From Microvirga arsenatis (GTDB lineage: Bacteria; Pseudomonadota; Alphaproteobacteria; Rhizobiales; Beijerinckiaceae): a stretch of DNA of 64,000 bases. The notes beneath the pieces are model-generated. The model was not told the origin of the DNA, made no database searches, and saw nothing but the letters and a program-made list of their open reading frames with translations. Position 1 is the first letter of the stretch. Each line of letters starts with the position of its first letter. The stretch covers positions 1 through 64,000 of the forward strand of contig NZ_JAAAXJ010000014.1 of the NCBI RefSeq assembly GCF_009910705.1. Reading direction: 5' to 3'. Both the position numbers and the translations under genes were made by a program. Below are positions 2,009 to 9,086 of this stretch, one piece after another.

Positions 2009-2305
2009 ATGACCAGCCTGACACGCCACGAGACGGACCAGCTTCGCCGCCTGGACGAGATGCGCAAGACCTTCGAGCGGTTGCGGGCGGAGCGCATCCG
2101 GGCCGAGGGCGAGGTGGAGCGCCTGATGCGCGATCTCGAGGAGGCGCGGGCTCTCGCGCTCGCCGAACTCGGCACCGACGACGAGGCGCAGATCCAGGCG
2201 CTGATCGATGAGGCTCAGGCCCGCAACGCCGCGCTGGCCGAGGAGTTCGGCGCTGCCCTGCGCAATATCGAGACACGCCTGAAGCAGCTCGGAGACGAGC
2301 GTTGA
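2009..2305 (+). CDS. Small coiled-coil protein, partner of the permuted Rad50-like ATPase
   Basis: The gene encodes 98 residues that are almost entirely charged helix with heptad spacing (for example LRRLDEMRKTFERLRAERIR), giving a predicted coiled coil over about residues 5-55 and 62-95. There is no enzymatic motif. The stop codon overlaps the TTG start of the Rad50-like gene (TTGA), so the two are translationally coupled. Because the next protein begins with only a short helical arm while its C-terminal arm is about 190 residues long, this protein could supply the missing part of the second coiled-coil strand. That role is an inference. The ribosome site is weak (GGAG about 13 bp upstream). 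Confidence 0.85.
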   Translation: MTSLTRHETDQLRRLDEMRKTFERLRAERIRAEGEVERLMRDLEEARALALAELGTDDEAQIQALIDEAQARNAALAEEFGAALRNIETRLKQLGDER

Positions 2306-4128
2306 TCCTGCACGCCATCGATCACGACCTCGCCCGCGCGCAGGCGGCGCTCGCCCGGCTCGAAGGCCGGCGCGATGCCATCCGCATGCGGGTGGAGGAA
2401 CTCACCCGCGAGATCGAGCTCGCCAAGGGACGCCTCGCCGTAAGGGACGAGGTGGAGGCCTTCATCGAGGCCGTGCACGGCTCCGCCAGCCGGCGCAGCC
2501 TGCAGGCCTTCGAGACGCTGCTCACCGCCCTGGTGCAGGAGGTGCTGCCGGGCGAAAAGCCCGTGGCCTTGGATCTCTCCACCGAACGCGGCTTGGCCTC
2601 CCTCGACATCTGCGTCCGGCGCCCGGACGGCTCGCTCGAGGACGTGCTCGAGGACAATGGCGGCGCGCTCACCAATGTCATCGGCATGGCGCTGCGCCTG
2701 ATCGCGGTGGTGAAGGCCGACGTAGCGCGGTTTCTCGCGCTGGACGAGGCGGATTGCTGGATCGCACCGGATCGCGTCTCGTCCTTCTACCGGGTGCTGG
2801 AGGACGGCGCGGCGCGGCTCGGCGTGCAGTGCCTCGCCGTATCGCACCATGACCTGTCGCAGTTCTCGGGCCAGTTCCACATCGCGCGCGTCGCAGGCGA
2901 GCCGGCGGCGGGCGTCGAGGTGATCTCCTCCGACACCGGCGCGCAATGGAACGATGCGCAGCCGGGCCTGCGCTACATCCGTCTCGTCAACGTGCAGGCC
3001 TACCGGGACGCGACGCTGCCCCTGAGTCCCGGCGTGAACGCGCTCATCGGCCCGAACAACCGCGGCAAGTCCACCTTCATCCGCGCCCTGCGCGCCGTGT
3101 TCTACGGCGAGGCGCGAGACAGCCTCGTGCGTGCGGGCGAGAAGTCGGCCACGGTCGAGATCGGGGTTGCGGGAGGAAGGACGCTGCGCTTCGTCCGCCA
3201 GCCGCGCCGCTCGCCGGTGAACGTCTGGTCCCTGCACGAGGCGGACGGCTCGGTGGTCGAGGAGCGCGGCATGCGCTACGAGACCGGCGGGCGCAATGTG
3301 CCGGACTGGGTGGCCGACCTCATCCGCATCCGCAAGGTCGAGGATCTCGACGTCCACGTCGCGCACCAGAAGTTCCCCGTGTTCCTCCTGGGCGAGACGC
3401 CGTCCCGCCGCTCCGCCGTTCTCTCCATCGGCCAGGAGGCGGGCTATATCCGCGACATGCTCGTCATCCACCGGGAGCGCTGCCGGCGCGATACCGAGGC
3501 GGTGCGCAGCGGCGAGCGGGAGCTGATCGCGCTGGGCGAGACCCTCGAGGGCCTGACGGAGATCGAGGCGCTGAAGGAGCAGCTTGCCGCCGCAAGCGCG
3601 CAGGCGGAGCGACTCAGGGCATCGGCCGCGACGATCGAGCGGCTGCAGGCCCATGCGGCGCAGCTTGCCGCGCTCCGGAGCAGGCTCGAGAGGGCGCAGG
3701 CCCGCGCCGGCATCACGGCGCACCTGCCTTCGGCGGAGCATCTGGATGCCCTCACCCGTGCCGTCGAGCGCTCCCGCGAACGCGAGCGGATCGGGCGCCG
3801 GGTCGTGCAGGCGAGCCGCGCGCTGGCGCAAAGCCAGGCGCGGCTTCGGGCGCTGCAGGACCTGCCGTCGGCAGCGCCGGTGCTTGAAAACACGGCGCCG
3901 GCACAAGACATCCTCAAGCGTCTTGCCGATCTGCGCAGTGCCGCACGGATCGCCAAAACCCGCATGGCGCAGGTCGATGACGGGCTGAAGGCCCTGCAGG
4001 CCGAGATGGCGCGCCTCGTCGAGGAGACCGGCGGCCTGTGCCCCACCTGCGGCTCGCCCGTAAGACCCGAGACCCTGCTCGACCACCACGCCCATTCCCT
4101 GAAGCCCACGGAGCGGCTCACCGCATGA
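2302..4128 (+). CDS. Circularly permuted Rad50/SbcC-like ATPase with C-terminal zinc hook
   Basis: The gene encodes 608 residues from a TTG start preceded by GGAG at 7-bp spacing. Order of elements: a short helical arm (about 5-58); a signature-like segment EDNGGALTNV (117-126); Walker B FLALDEAD (144-151); a His-switch AVSHHD (179-184); then Walker A GPNNRGKST (250-258); a Q-loop-like HQKFPVFLLGE (355-365); a long coiled coil (about 395-575) and a CPTC zinc hook (580-583). In ordinary Rad50/SbcC the Walker A lobe comes first, the hook is central and the Walker B lobe is last. Here the C-lobe is joined directly to the N-lobe and the chain is opened at the hook. There is no Met between residues 130 and 324, which argues against two separate genes. 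It overlaps the Mre11-like gene by 4 bp (ATGA). Confidence 0.93.
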   Translation: MILHAIDHDLARAQAALARLEGRRDAIRMRVEELTREIELAKGRLAVRDEVEAFIEAVHGSASRRSLQAFETLLTALVQEVLPGEKPVALDLSTERGLASLDICVRRPDGSLEDVLEDNGGALTNVIGMALRLIAVVKADVARFLALDEADCWIAPDRVSSFYRVLEDGAARLGVQCLAVSHHDLSQFSGQFHIARVAGEPAAGVEVISSDTGAQWNDAQPGLRYIRLVNVQAYRDATLPLSPGVNALIGPNNRGKSTFIRALRAVFYGEARDSLVRAGEKSATVEIGVAGGRTLRFVRQPRRSPVNVWSLHEADGSVVEERGMRYETGGRNVPDWVADLIRIRKVEDLDVHVAHQKFPVFLLGETPSRRSAVLSIGQEAGYIRDMLVIHRERCRRDTEAVRSGERELIALGETLEGLTEIEALKEQLAAASAQAERLRASAATIERLQAHAAQLAALRSRLERAQARAGITAHLPSAEHLDALTRAVERSRERERIGRRVVQASRALAQSQARLRALQDLPSAAPVLENTAPAQDILKRLADLRSAARIAKTRMAQVDDGLKALQAEMARLVEETGGLCPTCGSPVRPETLLDHHAHSLKPTERLTA

Positions 4129-5125: not shown

Positions 5126-5776
5126 CTAGAAGGCGAACGGATCGGTGTAGGGCAGGCGGCGCCGGCGCACCTGCGTCTCCGGCAGGATCGGGCGGCTGAT
5201 GTCCACGGCGATCAGGCCTTCGCAGGCGAGCGCGAGCACGGCCGCCACGCCGTCCTGCGTGTTCATCACGGCGCTGGCGCAATCCACCAATCGCATGGCG
5301 CCCACCTCGTCGAGCTGGTGCAGGATCCGCACCCGGTCGCCCGCCGTCACGGGCGTGCGCTTGCATGCCATGATCAGGCGCGTGGTGGTGAAGCGCGGCT
5401 CGGCCCGGATGCTGGCCGCCGTCTCGATCAGGAAGGGGCGTCCGTCGGCGGAGGCGATGCCGTGGATCGCTGCGGCGCGTAAGGGGTGGCTCAGGAGGTC
5501 GTCGTCCGTCACCACGTCCACCAGGCAGGAGGAGCCGTCGCGGACGATCTCGAAATCGGCCACGTGCTCGATCATGTCGTCGCCGATGGCGAAGGCGGCA
5601 GGGTCCGCCGGGGCCCGCAGGGACTCGATCTCGGCATCGAGCTCGCAGATCGCGAGATAGTCCGCGATCAGGGCGTTGCGCGCGAGCGGCGCGGCCGGGC
5701 GCTTGGCGGCCCGACGGGCAGTGCCGCGGCGGGCGGGGCGTCGATCCGAAAGGTCGAGGATCGCTTGCGCGGACAT
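5126..5776 (-). CDS. Unknown protein with an SOS promoter
   Basis: The gene encodes 216 residues with a very basic N-terminus (residues 12-28, rich in Arg/Lys/Ala) followed by an acidic alpha/beta region. I do not recognise the family, and there is no signal peptide or membrane helix. A GGAGG site 6 bp before the ATG supports the start. It is transcribed from a strong SOS-type promoter (5851-5882) in which the LexA box overlaps the -10. It converges tail-to-tail with the Mre11-like gene, 2 bp apart. The basic tail suggests nucleic-acid contact, but this is a guess. Confidence 0.8.
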   Translation of the reverse strand: MSAQAILDLSDRRPARRGTARRAAKRPAAPLARNALIADYLAICELDAEIESLRAPADPAAFAIGDDMIEHVADFEIVRDGSSCLVDVVTDDDLLSHPLRAAAIHGIASADGRPFLIETAASIRAEPRFTTTRLIMACKRTPVTAGDRVRILHQLDEVGAMRLVDCASAVMNTQDGVAAVLALACEGLIAVDISRPILPETQVRRRRLPYTDPFAF

Positions 5777-6134: not shown

Positions 6135-6806
6135 ATGAATACGACCGATAAGAAAATCTCCGAGGTGCTGGCCAAGTTCGGCGAGCCGATGGCCGGCAAC
6201 GTCTGGCGCGTTCAGGGCACCGCCGTGGTCTACCACAAGACCCTGGAGCGCATCGCCGCCCAGGCGAAGATCGTCTTCGACGAGCCCAAGATCATCCGCG
6301 CCGAGCGCGACGAGGCGGTGATCCAGGTCACGGGCCGCATGGGCGACCGGATCGAGTGGTCGATCGGCGAGGCGCTGATCGGCGTCAACTACCGCGTCTC
6401 GGGCAAGCAGGCGGCCTACGTCTACGCCATGGCCGAGAAGCGTGCGAAGGATCGCGTGATCCTCAAGCTCATCGAGCTGCACGGCTATGTCTACTCCGAG
6501 GAAGAGGCCGACGAGTTCAAGCAGGGCCGCCCGGGCTTTGCCGATCCGCATGTGGAGCTGGAGAAGACCGAGACGCAGCCGCAGAAGGGCAGGGTCGAGG
6601 CGTCGGGTTCCGACGGCAAGGTCGAGGACGACCTGAAGGCGAAGATCAAGAAGGCCAAGACCATCAACGCGGTCACGGACCTGATGCTTCATGCCGATAC
6701 GCAGAAGCTGCTCGCCGATCTGCCCGAGGGCATCCGCGACGAGATCCGCGACTTCGCCAAGGCGCGCCTCGTCGAGCTCGGCTGGCCGACCAAGAAGGCA
6801 GCCTAA
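6135..6806 (+). CDS. Unknown DNA-metabolism protein, possibly annealing-type
   Basis: The gene encodes 223 residues. The central segment (AAYVYAMAEKRAKDRVILKLI, about residues 95-115) resembles the A-E-x-R/K-A-x-x-R helix found near the nucleic-acid-binding edge of Rad52/Erf-like single-strand annealing proteins, often followed, as here, by YSEEEADEF. The C-terminal third is charged and helical. The similarity is from memory of a short motif, so the call is tentative. The gene has its own SOS promoter (6019-6060), and a strong terminator follows at 6823-6858 before recD2. Such proteins are common in phage and plasmid recombination modules, which is compatible with the island having an element origin. 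Confidence 0.75.
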   Translation: MNTTDKKISEVLAKFGEPMAGNVWRVQGTAVVYHKTLERIAAQAKIVFDEPKIIRAERDEAVIQVTGRMGDRIEWSIGEALIGVNYRVSGKQAAYVYAMAEKRAKDRVILKLIELHGYVYSEEEADEFKQGRPGFADPHVELEKTETQPQKGRVEASGSDGKVEDDLKAKIKKAKTINAVTDLMLHADTQKLLADLPEGIRDEIRDFAKARLVELGWPTKKAA

Positions 6807-6896: not shown

Positions 6897-9086
6897 ATGC
6901 CGAAACCATCCGCTCTCGCCGCTTCCGATCAGGAGGCGCTGTCCCTCTCCGAACATCTCGTCGGCTCCATCGAGCGGGTGACGTTCCACAACGATGAAAC
7001 CGGCTTCTGCGTGCTGCGGGTGAAGGCGCGCGGGCATCGCAAGCCCGTGGTCGTGGTGGGCCATGCGCCGTCCGTCGCCATCGGCGAGGTGATCGAGGCG
7101 AGCGGCGGCTGGCTGCACGACCGCAACCACGGCGTCCAGTTTCGCGCGCATGCGCTGGCGACCTCGGCGCCGACCACGGCGGAGGACCTCCAGCGCTTCC
7201 TCGGCTCCGGCCTTCTGAGGGGCGTCGGCCCCGCTGTCGCGCAAAGGCTCATCGCCTCCTTCGGCGCCCGCATTCTCGACGTGATCGAGAAAAAGCCGCA
7301 TGAGCTCACGCGCGTGCAGGGCATCGGCATGGCGAAGGCGCTCGGCATCGGCGAGGCCTGGACGGAGCATCGCGCGCTCAAGGATATCGCCGCCTTCCTC
7401 AACGCCCACGGCATCGGCGGCTTCCTGCTCACGCGCATCTACCGCGCCTATGGCGTGGGAGCCATCGACATCATCAAGGCCAATCCCTACCGGCTCGTGC
7501 TCGACATTCCGGGCTTCGAGTTCGCGCTCGCCGATCAGGTGGCCCTGCGGCTCGATGTGGAGCCGACGGCCGAGATGCGCCTGCAGGCGGGCCTTGCCCA
7601 CGTGCTGTCTGAGGCGGTGAAGGAAGGGCATTCGGGGCTCGGTGCGGACGAGCTGCTGCGGCAGGCCAGCCGCCTGCTCGACGTGACGGAGGCGGAGCTC
7701 GGGCCGGTGCTCGACGCGCAATGCGCCGCGGGGCAGCTCGTGGCCGATGGCTTGAGCGGCCGGCGCAGCATCTTTCTGAAGAGCCTCTACGGCGCCGAGA
7801 TGTTCATCGCGCAAAGGCTCAAGGATCTCGCCAGGGGCGAGCACCCCTGGGCCGGCCTCGATGCTGCGCAGGTGATCGCCGAGGCGGAAGCCGCCATCGG
7901 CGTGACCTATTCGCCGAGCCAGCGCGAGGCGCTCGCGGCCGCCTGCCGCTCCAAGGTGCTCGTGGTCACCGGCGGTCCCGGCGTGGGCAAGACCACGCTC
8001 ATCCGGAGCCTGACGCGCCTCTGCGCGCAGCACGAGCGCACCATCGCCCTCTGCGCGCCCACGGGACGGGCGGCGAAGCGCCTGTCGGAGAGCACGGGCT
8101 TTCCGGCCAGGACGGTGCATCGTCTCCTCGAAGCTTCGGAGGGCGGCTTCCGCCGCAACGCCAAGACCCCGCTCGACTGCGATCTTCTCGTCGTGGACGA
8201 AGCCTCGATGCTCGACATCCGCCTCACGGCCGCCCTGCTGCGCGCCTTGCCGGACGAAGCCTCCCTGCTGCTCGTCGGCGACGTGGACCAGCTTCCCTCC
8301 ATCGGCCCCGGGCAGATCCTCTCCGACATCATCGCCTCCGGTGCCGTGACCGTGGTGCAGCTCAAGGAGGTGTTCCGGCAGGAGCGGGAAAGCCGCATCA
8401 TCACCGTGGCGCACGCCATCAACCGCGGGCTGATGCCCGACCTTTCGCACCGGCCGGACTCCGACCTGTTCTTCGTGGAGGCCGACACGCCGTCCGATGC
8501 CGTGGCGAAGATGACCATCCTCATGCGCGACCGGATTCCGCGCCGCTCCGGCCTCGATCCCGTGCGCGACGTCCAGGTGCTGTGCGCCATGAATCGCGGA
8601 CGGCTCGGCACCAACATGCTGAACGGCGAACTACAGCAGGTCTTCAACCCGCCCGGGCCCGAGAGCCTGCACCGCGCCGGCTGGATCTACGGGCCGGGCG
8701 ACAAGGTCATGCAGGTCCGCAACGATTACGAGCGGGACGTCTATAACGGCGAGGTTGGCATCGTGCGCGAGGTGCGGCGCGACCATGGCGAGCTCACCGT
8801 CGCCTTCGACGAGCGGCTCGTTGCCTACACCCTCAAGGAGCTCGACGAGCTTGCGCTGGCCTATGCGGTGACGATCCACAAGGCGCAAGGCTCCGAATAC
8901 CCGGCCGTGATCATCCCCGTCGCGCTGCAGCAGGCCTCCATGCTCGGGCGCAAGCTGCTCTATACGGGCGTCACGCGGGGAAGCCGCCTCGTGATCCTCC
9001 TGGGTAGCCGCGCGGCCCTGGCGCAGGCCGTCGCCTCCGAGGAGGAGCCGCGCCTCTCCCGGCTGCGGAACTGGCTCGAGACCTGA
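6897..9086 (+). CDS. recD2: RecD2-type SF1B DNA helicase
   Basis: The gene encodes 729 residues, the usual RecD2 length. An N-terminal OB-like region (about 20-90) and helix-hairpin-helix repeats (LLRGVGPAVAQRL near 106, then VQGIGMAKALG near 140) precede the helicase core: Walker A GGPGVGKTT (359-367), APTGRAAKRL (387-396), Walker B VVDEAS (432-437), GDVDQLPSIGPG, and C-terminal TIHKAQGSEYP and LLYTGVTRGS. RecD2 unwinds DNA 5' to 3' without RecBC and works in repair and replication restart. Its place beside ssb, the Rad50/Mre11-like pair and the 6135 gene makes a repair island. No LexA box lies in its own 90-bp upstream gap. Confidence 0.95.
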   Translation: MPKPSALAASDQEALSLSEHLVGSIERVTFHNDETGFCVLRVKARGHRKPVVVVGHAPSVAIGEVIEASGGWLHDRNHGVQFRAHALATSAPTTAEDLQRFLGSGLLRGVGPAVAQRLIASFGARILDVIEKKPHELTRVQGIGMAKALGIGEAWTEHRALKDIAAFLNAHGIGGFLLTRIYRAYGVGAIDIIKANPYRLVLDIPGFEFALADQVALRLDVEPTAEMRLQAGLAHVLSEAVKEGHSGLGADELLRQASRLLDVTEAELGPVLDAQCAAGQLVADGLSGRRSIFLKSLYGAEMFIAQRLKDLARGEHPWAGLDAAQVIAEAEAAIGVTYSPSQREALAAACRSKVLVVTGGPGVGKTTLIRSLTRLCAQHERTIALCAPTGRAAKRLSESTGFPARTVHRLLEASEGGFRRNAKTPLDCDLLVVDEASMLDIRLTAALLRALPDEASLLLVGDVDQLPSIGPGQILSDIIASGAVTVVQLKEVFRQERESRIITVAHAINRGLMPDLSHRPDSDLFFVEADTPSDAVAKMTILMRDRIPRRSGLDPVRDVQVLCAMNRGRLGTNMLNGELQQVFNPPGPESLHRAGWIYGPGDKVMQVRNDYERDVYNGEVGIVREVRRDHGELTVAFDERLVAYTLKELDELALAYAVTIHKAQGSEYPAVIIPVALQQASMLGRKLLYTGVTRGSRLVILLGSRAALAQAVASEEEPRLSRLRNWLET

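Follow-up and report, generated by a model that had tools for sequence, protein, structure and literature searches.

The window analysed here (positions 1 to 64,000 of the forward strand of Microvirga arsenatis contig NZ_JAAAXJ010000014.1, assembly GCF_009910705.1) contains a cluster of three genes, which are, in order, a small open reading frame (ORF) of coil-like sequence, referred to below as the coil ORF, a gene for a Rad50-like ATPase and a gene for a Mre11-like phosphoesterase. In canonical Rad50/SbcC proteins the chain runs from Walker A through a coil, the hook and a second coil to Walker B. The ATPase of the window, encoded in one open frame of 608 amino acids with a TTG start, is arranged the other way round: a C-lobe with the signature-like segment, Walker B and the H-loop precedes an N-lobe with Walker A and the Q-loop, after which come a helical arm and, near the end of the chain, the motif CPTC (coordinates in the table below). 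Our results support the view that this gene encodes a Rad50-like ATPase that is circularly permuted, with its opening at the hook, that is conserved and under selection, and that has a Mre11-like gene beside it. At the level of sequence, it is established what the two halves are and in which order they stand, and the same holds for the catalytic residues, the CxxC near the end and the conserved three-gene cluster.

The reversed lobe order can be regarded as good as proven from alignments and profile searches. An alignment of 17 diverse homologues contains invariant columns (17/17) that include G121, N125, D148, E149, H182, G250, G255, K256, Q356, C580 and C583, and the same residues are also kept in 32 closer homologues. 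When the halves were searched separately as profiles, the best solved structure for the first was the Rad50 C-lobe chain 1ii8_B (expectation value, E, 3e-4), and the best match for the second was Rad50 5f3w, over N-lobe residues 5-202 (E 1.3e-11); the N-lobe half also matches PF13476 above the cut-off (E 4e-11). With a full profile made from the 17 diverse homologues, the second half aligns to residues 5-44 of 3qku_A (E 2.5e-5) and the first half to residues 278-356 (E 0.11 on its own), and PHROG places the halves in two families, phrog_15167 (residues 4-184) and phrog_16465 (residues 223-476). An earlier reading of the window, made from its letters only (the sequence-only reading), had described this ORF as a Rad50 circularly permuted at the hook and had proposed that the two halves be searched one by one. 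The ORF and every motif that it named are found at the residues it gave (ORF list and translation), each half finds the expected Rad50 lobe, and the reverse order recurs in all 17 aligned homologues and in 50 of 51 genome loci.

The protein thus has the Rad50/SbcC features of an N-lobe with Walker A and Q-loop and of a C-lobe with signature, Walker B and H-loop, and an adjacent gene of the Mre11/SbcD phosphoesterase type, another Rad50/SbcC trait, is present. The canonical order Walker A, coil, hook, coil, Walker B within one chain was not found in it, nor was a mid-chain CxxC at the tip of an antiparallel coil, and no second coil strand follows the CxxC. Membership in canonical Rad50/SbcC as such was rejected, since both the lobe order and the position of the hook differ. 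In the annotation of ten plasmid copies the permutation is invisible, as these carry only generic labels (AAA family ATPase in eight, hypothetical protein in one and DNA repair ATPase-like protein in one).

The reversed arrangement is conserved well beyond the window. A search of the genus returned a match in 33 of 37 Microvirga genomes, the window's own included (one match is a fragment of 64 amino acids), and none in 24 genomes from 24 other genera. The GTDB collection yielded 51 loci, from Microvirga, Methylobacterium, Antarcticirhabdus, an Aurantimonadaceae metagenome-assembled genome and a Rhizobiales strain; these loci and the genus-search relatives are drawn from overlapping sets and their counts are not independent. 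Both lobes lie in one frame in 50 of the 51, the exception (L071) being a fragment of 65 amino acids at a contig end. Twenty-four plasmid records also match: in 21 a single stretch covers both lobes, and in three, from Cetobacterium and twice from Thermus, the match is confined to the N-lobe. The two-lobe records come from alpha-, beta- and gammaproteobacteria, with Bosea, Methylorubrum extorquens AM1 (megaplasmid), Rhizobium, Variovorax, Acidiphilium, Aeromonas, Pseudomonas, Vibrio and Alteromonas as hosts, and two further permuted proteins used as queries recovered the same 21 records, one of them adding an N-lobe-only record from Deinococcus. The same domain order that the sequence-only reading had suggested looking for in other genomes is found on other chromosomes and on plasmids, and its stated case for failure, that homologues would always be encoded as two genes and the frame be an error, did not materialize. 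Wider sampling found the gene sparsely, in 7 of 149 genomes of the family (two outside the genus), 1 of 385 of the class (the window's own) and 2 of 398 of the phylum (one of them the window's own), where no more than three candidates per listed genome were scored for the class and the phylum, such that distant members can escape. In three pairs of homologues the nonsynonymous rate (dN) is far below the synonymous rate (dS) in both lobes (e.g. 0.065 versus 0.73 and 0.037 versus 0.633), and dN/dS is about 0.15-0.36 in the arm and tail.

The possibility that the frame is an artefact of assembly or annotation that joined two genes, to which the separate encoding of the halves in phage relatives could lend some colour, is vanishingly small. 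The fused frame recurs in genomes and, as a single match across both lobes, on the 21 plasmid records, no genus-search match contains an internal stop, insertions and deletions comprise whole codons, and the one TGA encountered in the family search (L052) is the normal end of its frame. We consider this explanation refuted by the conservation of the fused frame across genomes and plasmids.

The two flanking genes accompany the ATPase closely. All 51 genome loci have a match to the coil ORF upstream of the permuted gene, and 47 have one to the Mre11-like gene downstream (as two frames in L029 and cut by the contig end in L056), the remaining four loci ending inside the ATPase gene. The Mre11-like protein of the window matches PF00149 (E 4e-7) and the SbcD-like family phrog_100 (E 8e-13), and it carries the five metal-site motifs. 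Twelve of the 21 plasmid regions were inspected (two unannotated ones read from their ORFs and L140 from annotation alone), and each has a small ORF before the ATPase gene and a gene of about 257-346 codons after it. The small ORF stands at the place of the coil ORF in all 12 and has a tblastn match in only two (L086 and L092); its assignment in the other ten is based on position and alignment.

In phages, the two halves are encoded by separate genes. In Bacillus phage vB_BboS-125, a gene for the N-lobe, ending GGICPLCEQTHKGGGC, is followed by an AP2-domain gene, a coil ORF of 78 codons and the C-lobe gene. A scan of viral contigs with this C-lobe found 27 contigs, which include vB_BboS-125 itself (L113) and many others that are close to one another; all 27 carry N-lobe, coil ORF and C-lobe, in this order, as three separate open frames, with a CPxC shortly before the end of the N-lobe protein. 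Microcystis phage Mvi-JY20 has an N-lobe gene whose product bears the terminal CxxC, then a Mre11-like gene (PF00149, E 2e-9), the coil ORF and the C-lobe gene, and only in this phage was a Mre11-like gene seen between the lobe genes. The phage pair, known as phrog_16465 (N-lobe, ‘exonuclease’) and phrog_15167 (C-lobe, ‘ATPase’), is homologous to the bacterial protein over both halves up to the terminal CxxC: in hhalign comparisons, the permuted profile aligns with the phage N-lobe protein through its terminal CPxC (probability 99.9, E 7e-35) and the permuted first half with the phage C-lobe (probability 98.7, E 2e-16). Both arrangements include a small coil ORF, which lies between the N- and C-lobe genes in the phages; they differ in that the phage lobes are separate genes, N then C, whereas the bacterial lobes form one frame, C then N. 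The coil ORFs of bacteria and phages are equated by place, size and coil-like sequence only. Rotating the phage order N - Mre11 - coil - C cyclically and fusing C to N gives the order seen in bacteria, coil - C::N - Mre11, and the bacterial gene looks like the product of a split Rad50 operon that was rotated and whose half-heads were fused in reverse order.

Other searches of viral sequences were less productive. Viral contigs scanned with the permuted protein or its profile, or with the C-lobe of Mvi-JY20, gave no relative; among annotated phages, permuted proteins match one lobe at a time (three records, and four in another search), and the Mvi-JY20 N-lobe matched only its own record. For Microbacterium phage Magritte, no N-lobe was noticed in the stretches inspected (the annotation, plus four translated genes). 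In an uncultured phage of 485 kb (L096, LR745208.1 453308-463871), the C-lobe gene comes after a coil ORF and a clamp-like gene, whose likeness to sliding clamps was judged by eye, with no family search made; an N-lobe partner was not found near this C-lobe.

The part of the protein that follows the N-lobe varies in length. The distance from residue 421 to the CxxC ranges from 120 to 386 amino acids in the 17 homologues and lies within 4 residues of 120, 160 or 200 in nine of them, several of the other lengths not fitting steps of 40. LP..P.L.D loops recur along the arm, and comparison of the 17 arms with themselves gives peaks at offsets of 39 (z 7.1) and 46 (z 6.4), with lesser ones at 17, 40 and 63, as measured against residue shuffles, which lose helical periodicity. 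The arm is thus likely to be built of helical repeats of about 40 amino acids. At its end, a CxxC lies inside the last 60 amino acids in 32 of 32 closer (hyphomicrobial) homologues. The tail, taken as the first 30 residues after the CxxC, is rich in His and Cys, which make up 12% of it versus 2.6% of the rest in the 32 hyphomicrobial proteins, 15% versus 3% in the 17 diverse ones and 20% in the 27 phage tails versus 2.1% of the last 400 codons or fewer, an enrichment of about 5-fold (bacterial) to 9-fold (phage). An H-x-H occurs in 29/32, 12/17 and 20/27 of these tails and at least two further His or Cys residues in 32/32, 15/17 and 23/27, respectively, although the hyphomicrobial and diverse sets share six rows and rows within sets are related, such that the counts are not independent. 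Because a His/Cys-rich tail with H-x-H follows the CxxC, one chain may supply all four zinc ligands, and the simplest reading of the tip would be a four-ligand zinc site within a single chain; the tail composition suggests that such an intrachain site is at least as likely as a half-hook. The sequence-only reading had favoured the half-hook, i.e. a classic zinc hook shared between two chains rather than an intrachain CCHH site. This is quite possible, though we would give it less than even chances: the end of the protein matches isolated Rad50 hooks (6zff, E 4e-5, and 1l8d, E 1e-3, with the full profile), and both Cys are invariant whereas the His are less so (no H-x-H in 5 of 17), against which stand the excess of His and Cys in the tail and the regular presence of further ligands in the three, partly overlapping, sets. 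What that reading had said of a permuted and conserved Rad50-like ATPase stands; the coil ORF, the split phage relatives and the His/Cys-rich tail had escaped it.

Structure prediction was carried out with AlphaFold for the full protein (mean predicted local distance difference test score, pLDDT, 78; predicted template modelling score, pTM, 0.52) and for the head, residues 1-425 (pLDDT 80, pTM 0.68). In Foldseek, the first match of the full model is the Rad50 C-lobe chain 1f2u_B (template modelling score normalized to the target 0.70), and the list also holds the N-lobe chains 1f2u_C and 1f2u_A. With VIA-align, the head finds N-lobes of Rad50, SMC and RecF with Z of about 10 over residues 221-348, where unrelated helical chains, e.g. 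flagellins, reach Z of about 9.

From these data, we think it fairly probable that the protein works as a Rad50-like ATP-binding cassette (ABC) ATPase whose reversed half-heads (C-lobe first, then N-lobe) are connected by a short linker and whose chain has its opening at the hook, in the following manner. The two lobes would fold into one ABC head, and two heads would close on two ATP. The arm would form a chain of helical units of about 40 amino acids with a zinc knob (CxxC plus H-x-H) at its end, either intrachain or shared between two chains, and the coil protein would replace part of the missing return coil strand or cap the arm. The Mre11-like subunit would dock on the coil base via its C-terminal helices and process DNA ends once the head is opened by ATP binding and hydrolysis. 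With moderate confidence, we regard a role as ATP-gated partner of a Mre11-like nuclease as the best reading for the lineage to which the window belongs. More tentatively, and with more doubt than belief, the system could represent a third Rad50/SMC topology, in which a split Rad50 was fused in reverse, the return coil is provided in trans, the zinc tip is intrachain, the arms are open-ended, the three gene products form no closed ring and Mre11 is dead in some lineages.

Several observations weigh against this picture of a permuted Rad50 working with a nuclease. The scores of the permuted ATPase are far from the curated NCBIfam cut-offs for Rad50 (at most 37 bits versus at least 700 required), and neither an SbcC model of NCBIfam nor PF13558 of Pfam is among its matches. 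The head model has pLDDT below 50 at residues 346-356 and 359-379, around the Q-loop; none of the 50 matches that VIA-align listed per search spans the two lobes together, each lying on the N-lobe or on helices, and the structural aligners in general match each lobe to its Rad50 counterpart separately, one at a time. The match to Rad50 hooks is partly coil bias, as the unrelated coiled coils 8qae and 3jqh appear at about 2e-4 in the same list. The bacterial and phage coil ORFs have no detectable homology (hhalign probability 0.4). Finally, of the Mre11 motifs only one GDLLH, in L088, is left in the gammaproteobacterial plasmid regions L087-L091 and L098, which means that not every member can function as a nuclease.

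The third protein of these six regions retains a C-terminal, helical-looking part with an invariant Phe, and BLASTP aligns one such protein with the Mre11-like protein of the window (E 5e-9 over 53 residues); the third subunit of these plasmids is probably a structural, dead Mre11. Such a loss of nearly all phosphoesterase motifs, together with the size of the 21 plasmid records (253 kb to 1.32 Mb, typed as non-mobilizable), would also fit an architectural, SMC-like tether for large replicons, with the third subunit as a structural adaptor and nuclease activity incidental. We regard such a tether as distinctly improbable. The five motifs that we take to form the metal site of the calcineurin-like phosphoesterase family are all present in 43 of the 45 hyphomicrobial genome loci whose match is long enough (L032 and L066 each fail one pattern) and in five alpha- and betaproteobacterial plasmid copies (L083-L086 and L092), the second genomic copy L072 having GNHT in place of GNHD, and there is no kleisin among the Pfam matches of the Mre11-like or the coil protein. 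A hinge model is likewise not among the Pfam matches of the whole permuted ATPase; the arm was not searched alone.

The host genome (completeness 99.95%) raises the question of what other Mre11-Rad50-type complexes are present. SbcD has no match in it at E 0.001, whereas 13 of 14 control genomes match; SbcC_Walker_B gives none over the cut-off, whereas 12 of 14 controls pass; and TIGR00618 gives three matches, none over the cut-off, with only 1 of 14 controls passing. The permuted operon may, as judged from these searches, be the sole complex of this type in the host. On the other side of the balance, nine PF13476 matches in the host genome exceed the cut-off, eight of them without identification, and the SbcD and SbcC_Walker_B models score the Mre11-like protein and the ATPase of the window weakly or not at all; because they barely score even these proteins, divergent SbcC/SbcD relatives may be missed.

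The surroundings of the operon are conserved in 35 Microvirga loci, where five genes that lack a Pfam or PHROG match are each found in 34-35 of the 35, and a RecD2-type helicase (PF14490, PF23139; window 6897-9086, + strand) lies beside the operon in 23 of the 35. A second operon in genome G008, 35% identical, comprises a coil ORF, an ATPase of 826 amino acids and a Mre11-like gene (L072, G008:C33:230000-243000, - strand), and is followed, after about 0.2 kb and without a change of strand, by a complete type I Zorya set (ZorA-ZorB-ZorC-ZorD), in this one instance only. A function as a phage- or plasmid-defence complex, similar to Lamassu or to a Zorya accessory, in which the ATPase would sense foreign DNA ends and the Mre11-like protein degrade them, would suit this location, the sparse distribution outside the genus and the best PADLOC match of the ATPase, which is LmuB (44.9 bits over residues 226-588). 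We nevertheless think it unlikely: the Lamassu partners LmuA and LmuC were not seen in the cluster, neither partner gene having a match to any PADLOC family at E 0.1, and the near-universal presence of the operon in the genus, its conserved neighbourhood and the recurrent RecD2-type helicase look like those of a core trait. A DNA-end-processing partnership with the Mre11-like protein remains our preferred reading for the window.

Features of the permuted Rad50-like gene cluster in the window, and the Zorya set beside the second operon of genome G008 (residue numbers refer to the ATPase)
Feature	Position	Strand	Basis or remark
Coil ORF, 98 amino acids	2009..2305	+	First gene of cluster; stop overlaps ATPase start (TTGA)
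Permuted Rad50-like ATPase, 608 amino acids	2302..4128	+	ORF, homologues in genomes and plasmids, alignment
Short coil and C-lobe, residues 1-218	2302..2955	+	Corresponds to C-terminal half of Rad50; matches to 1ii8_B, 1f2u_B, phrog_15167
Signature-like segment LEDNGGALTNVIGMALRL, residues 116-133	2647..2700	+	ORF translation, 17-homologue alignment
Walker B FLALDEAD, residues 144-151	2731..2754	+	D148, E149 invariant 17/17
H-loop AVSHHD, residues 179-184	2836..2853	+	H182 invariant 17/17
N-lobe, residues 219-376	2956..3429	+	Corresponds to N-terminal half of Rad50; 5f3w profile match, PF13476
Walker A GPNNRGKST, residues 250-258	3049..3075	+	G250, G255, K256 invariant 17/17
Q-loop region HQKFPVFLLGE, residues 355-365	3364..3396	+	Q356 invariant 17/17
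Helical arm, residues 377-579	3430..4038	+	Apparently helical units of ~40 amino acids, LP..P.L.D-like loops
Terminal CPTC, residues 580-583	4039..4050	+	Both Cys 17/17; profile match to Rad50 hooks
H-A-H, residues 596-598, C-terminal tail	4087..4095	+	Possible second zinc-ligand pair
Mre11/SbcD-like calcineurin phosphoesterase, 332 amino acids	4125..5123	+	Start overlaps ATPase stop (ATGA); PF00149, phrog_100
Type I Zorya set beside second operon	L141, G008:C33:219000-231000	-	

Among the neighbours in the window, the gene at 6135-6806 (+ strand) encodes a protein of 223 amino acids that is up to 95% identical within Microvirga, has no Pfam or PHROG match and is also encoded next to the operon in Methylobacterium and Antarcticirhabdus. 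The conserved neighbour genes at 400-1720 and 5126-5776 (both - strand) have no Pfam or PHROG match either, and those at 1121-1720 and 5126-5776 persist in Methylobacterium loci. On the megaplasmids of Pseudomonas and Vibrio (L088, L089, L090 and L098), a lytic transglycosylase and an ATP-dependent or UvrD-type helicase are encoded upstream of the operon, with DUF1064 in addition in the Pseudomonas copies and a DNA topoisomerase in Vibrio; in the regions inspected from Aeromonas and Alteromonas, RecQ is upstream instead.

Rad50 and Mre11 parts have been re-joined in viruses, plasmids and megaplasmids, and in fusions of the Mimivirus type Mre11 is placed in front of Rad50 (PMC3175470); the accessible part of that article describes no permutation of Rad50 itself, and no permuted or split Rad50 was found in the accessible parts of PMC7824862 and PMC10586767. 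The literature searched holds no description of either, an earlier mention in the ABC-ATPase classification 10.1093/nar/gkaa726 being possible. A natural back-to-front Rad50-like ATPase beside a relative of its nuclease partner suggests that an ancient machine can be rewired with its working parts kept, and amounts to an experiment by nature on a DNA machine that is among the oldest and is present across life. If functional, it would mean that Rad50-type function does not require an unbroken path from N- to C-terminus through the hook, and the ring and rod models of Rad50 and SMC would become testable with a protein whose path is cut. It also forms a link between the split genes of phages, megaplasmids and the chromosomes of bacteria, and is a candidate Mre11-Rad50 complex for Microvirga, where canonical SbcD went undetected in the host genome searched.

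Among known systems, the best NCBIfam match is the archaea-specific SMC-related protein ASRP (NF045487), at 61.6 bits far below its cut-off of 300. The ATPase resembles LmuB of Lamassu in being Rad50-like with a short arm; LmuB has a C-terminal Walker B, i.e. the normal order, and works with LmuA and LmuC (PMC10586767, as far as accessible). The closest comparison is with Rad50/SbcC and Mre11/SbcD, with which the cluster shares both half-heads, Walker A, the Q-loop, the signature-like segment, Walker B and the H-loop, the hook-like CxxC end and an adjoining gene for a calcineurin-like phosphoesterase. Unlike in Rad50/SbcC, the half-heads of the permuted ATPase are reversed, the chain is open at the hook and lacks a return coil beyond the CxxC, additional His and Cys residues follow this motif, the arm seems to consist of units of about 40 amino acids, and a third, small coil gene completes the cluster.

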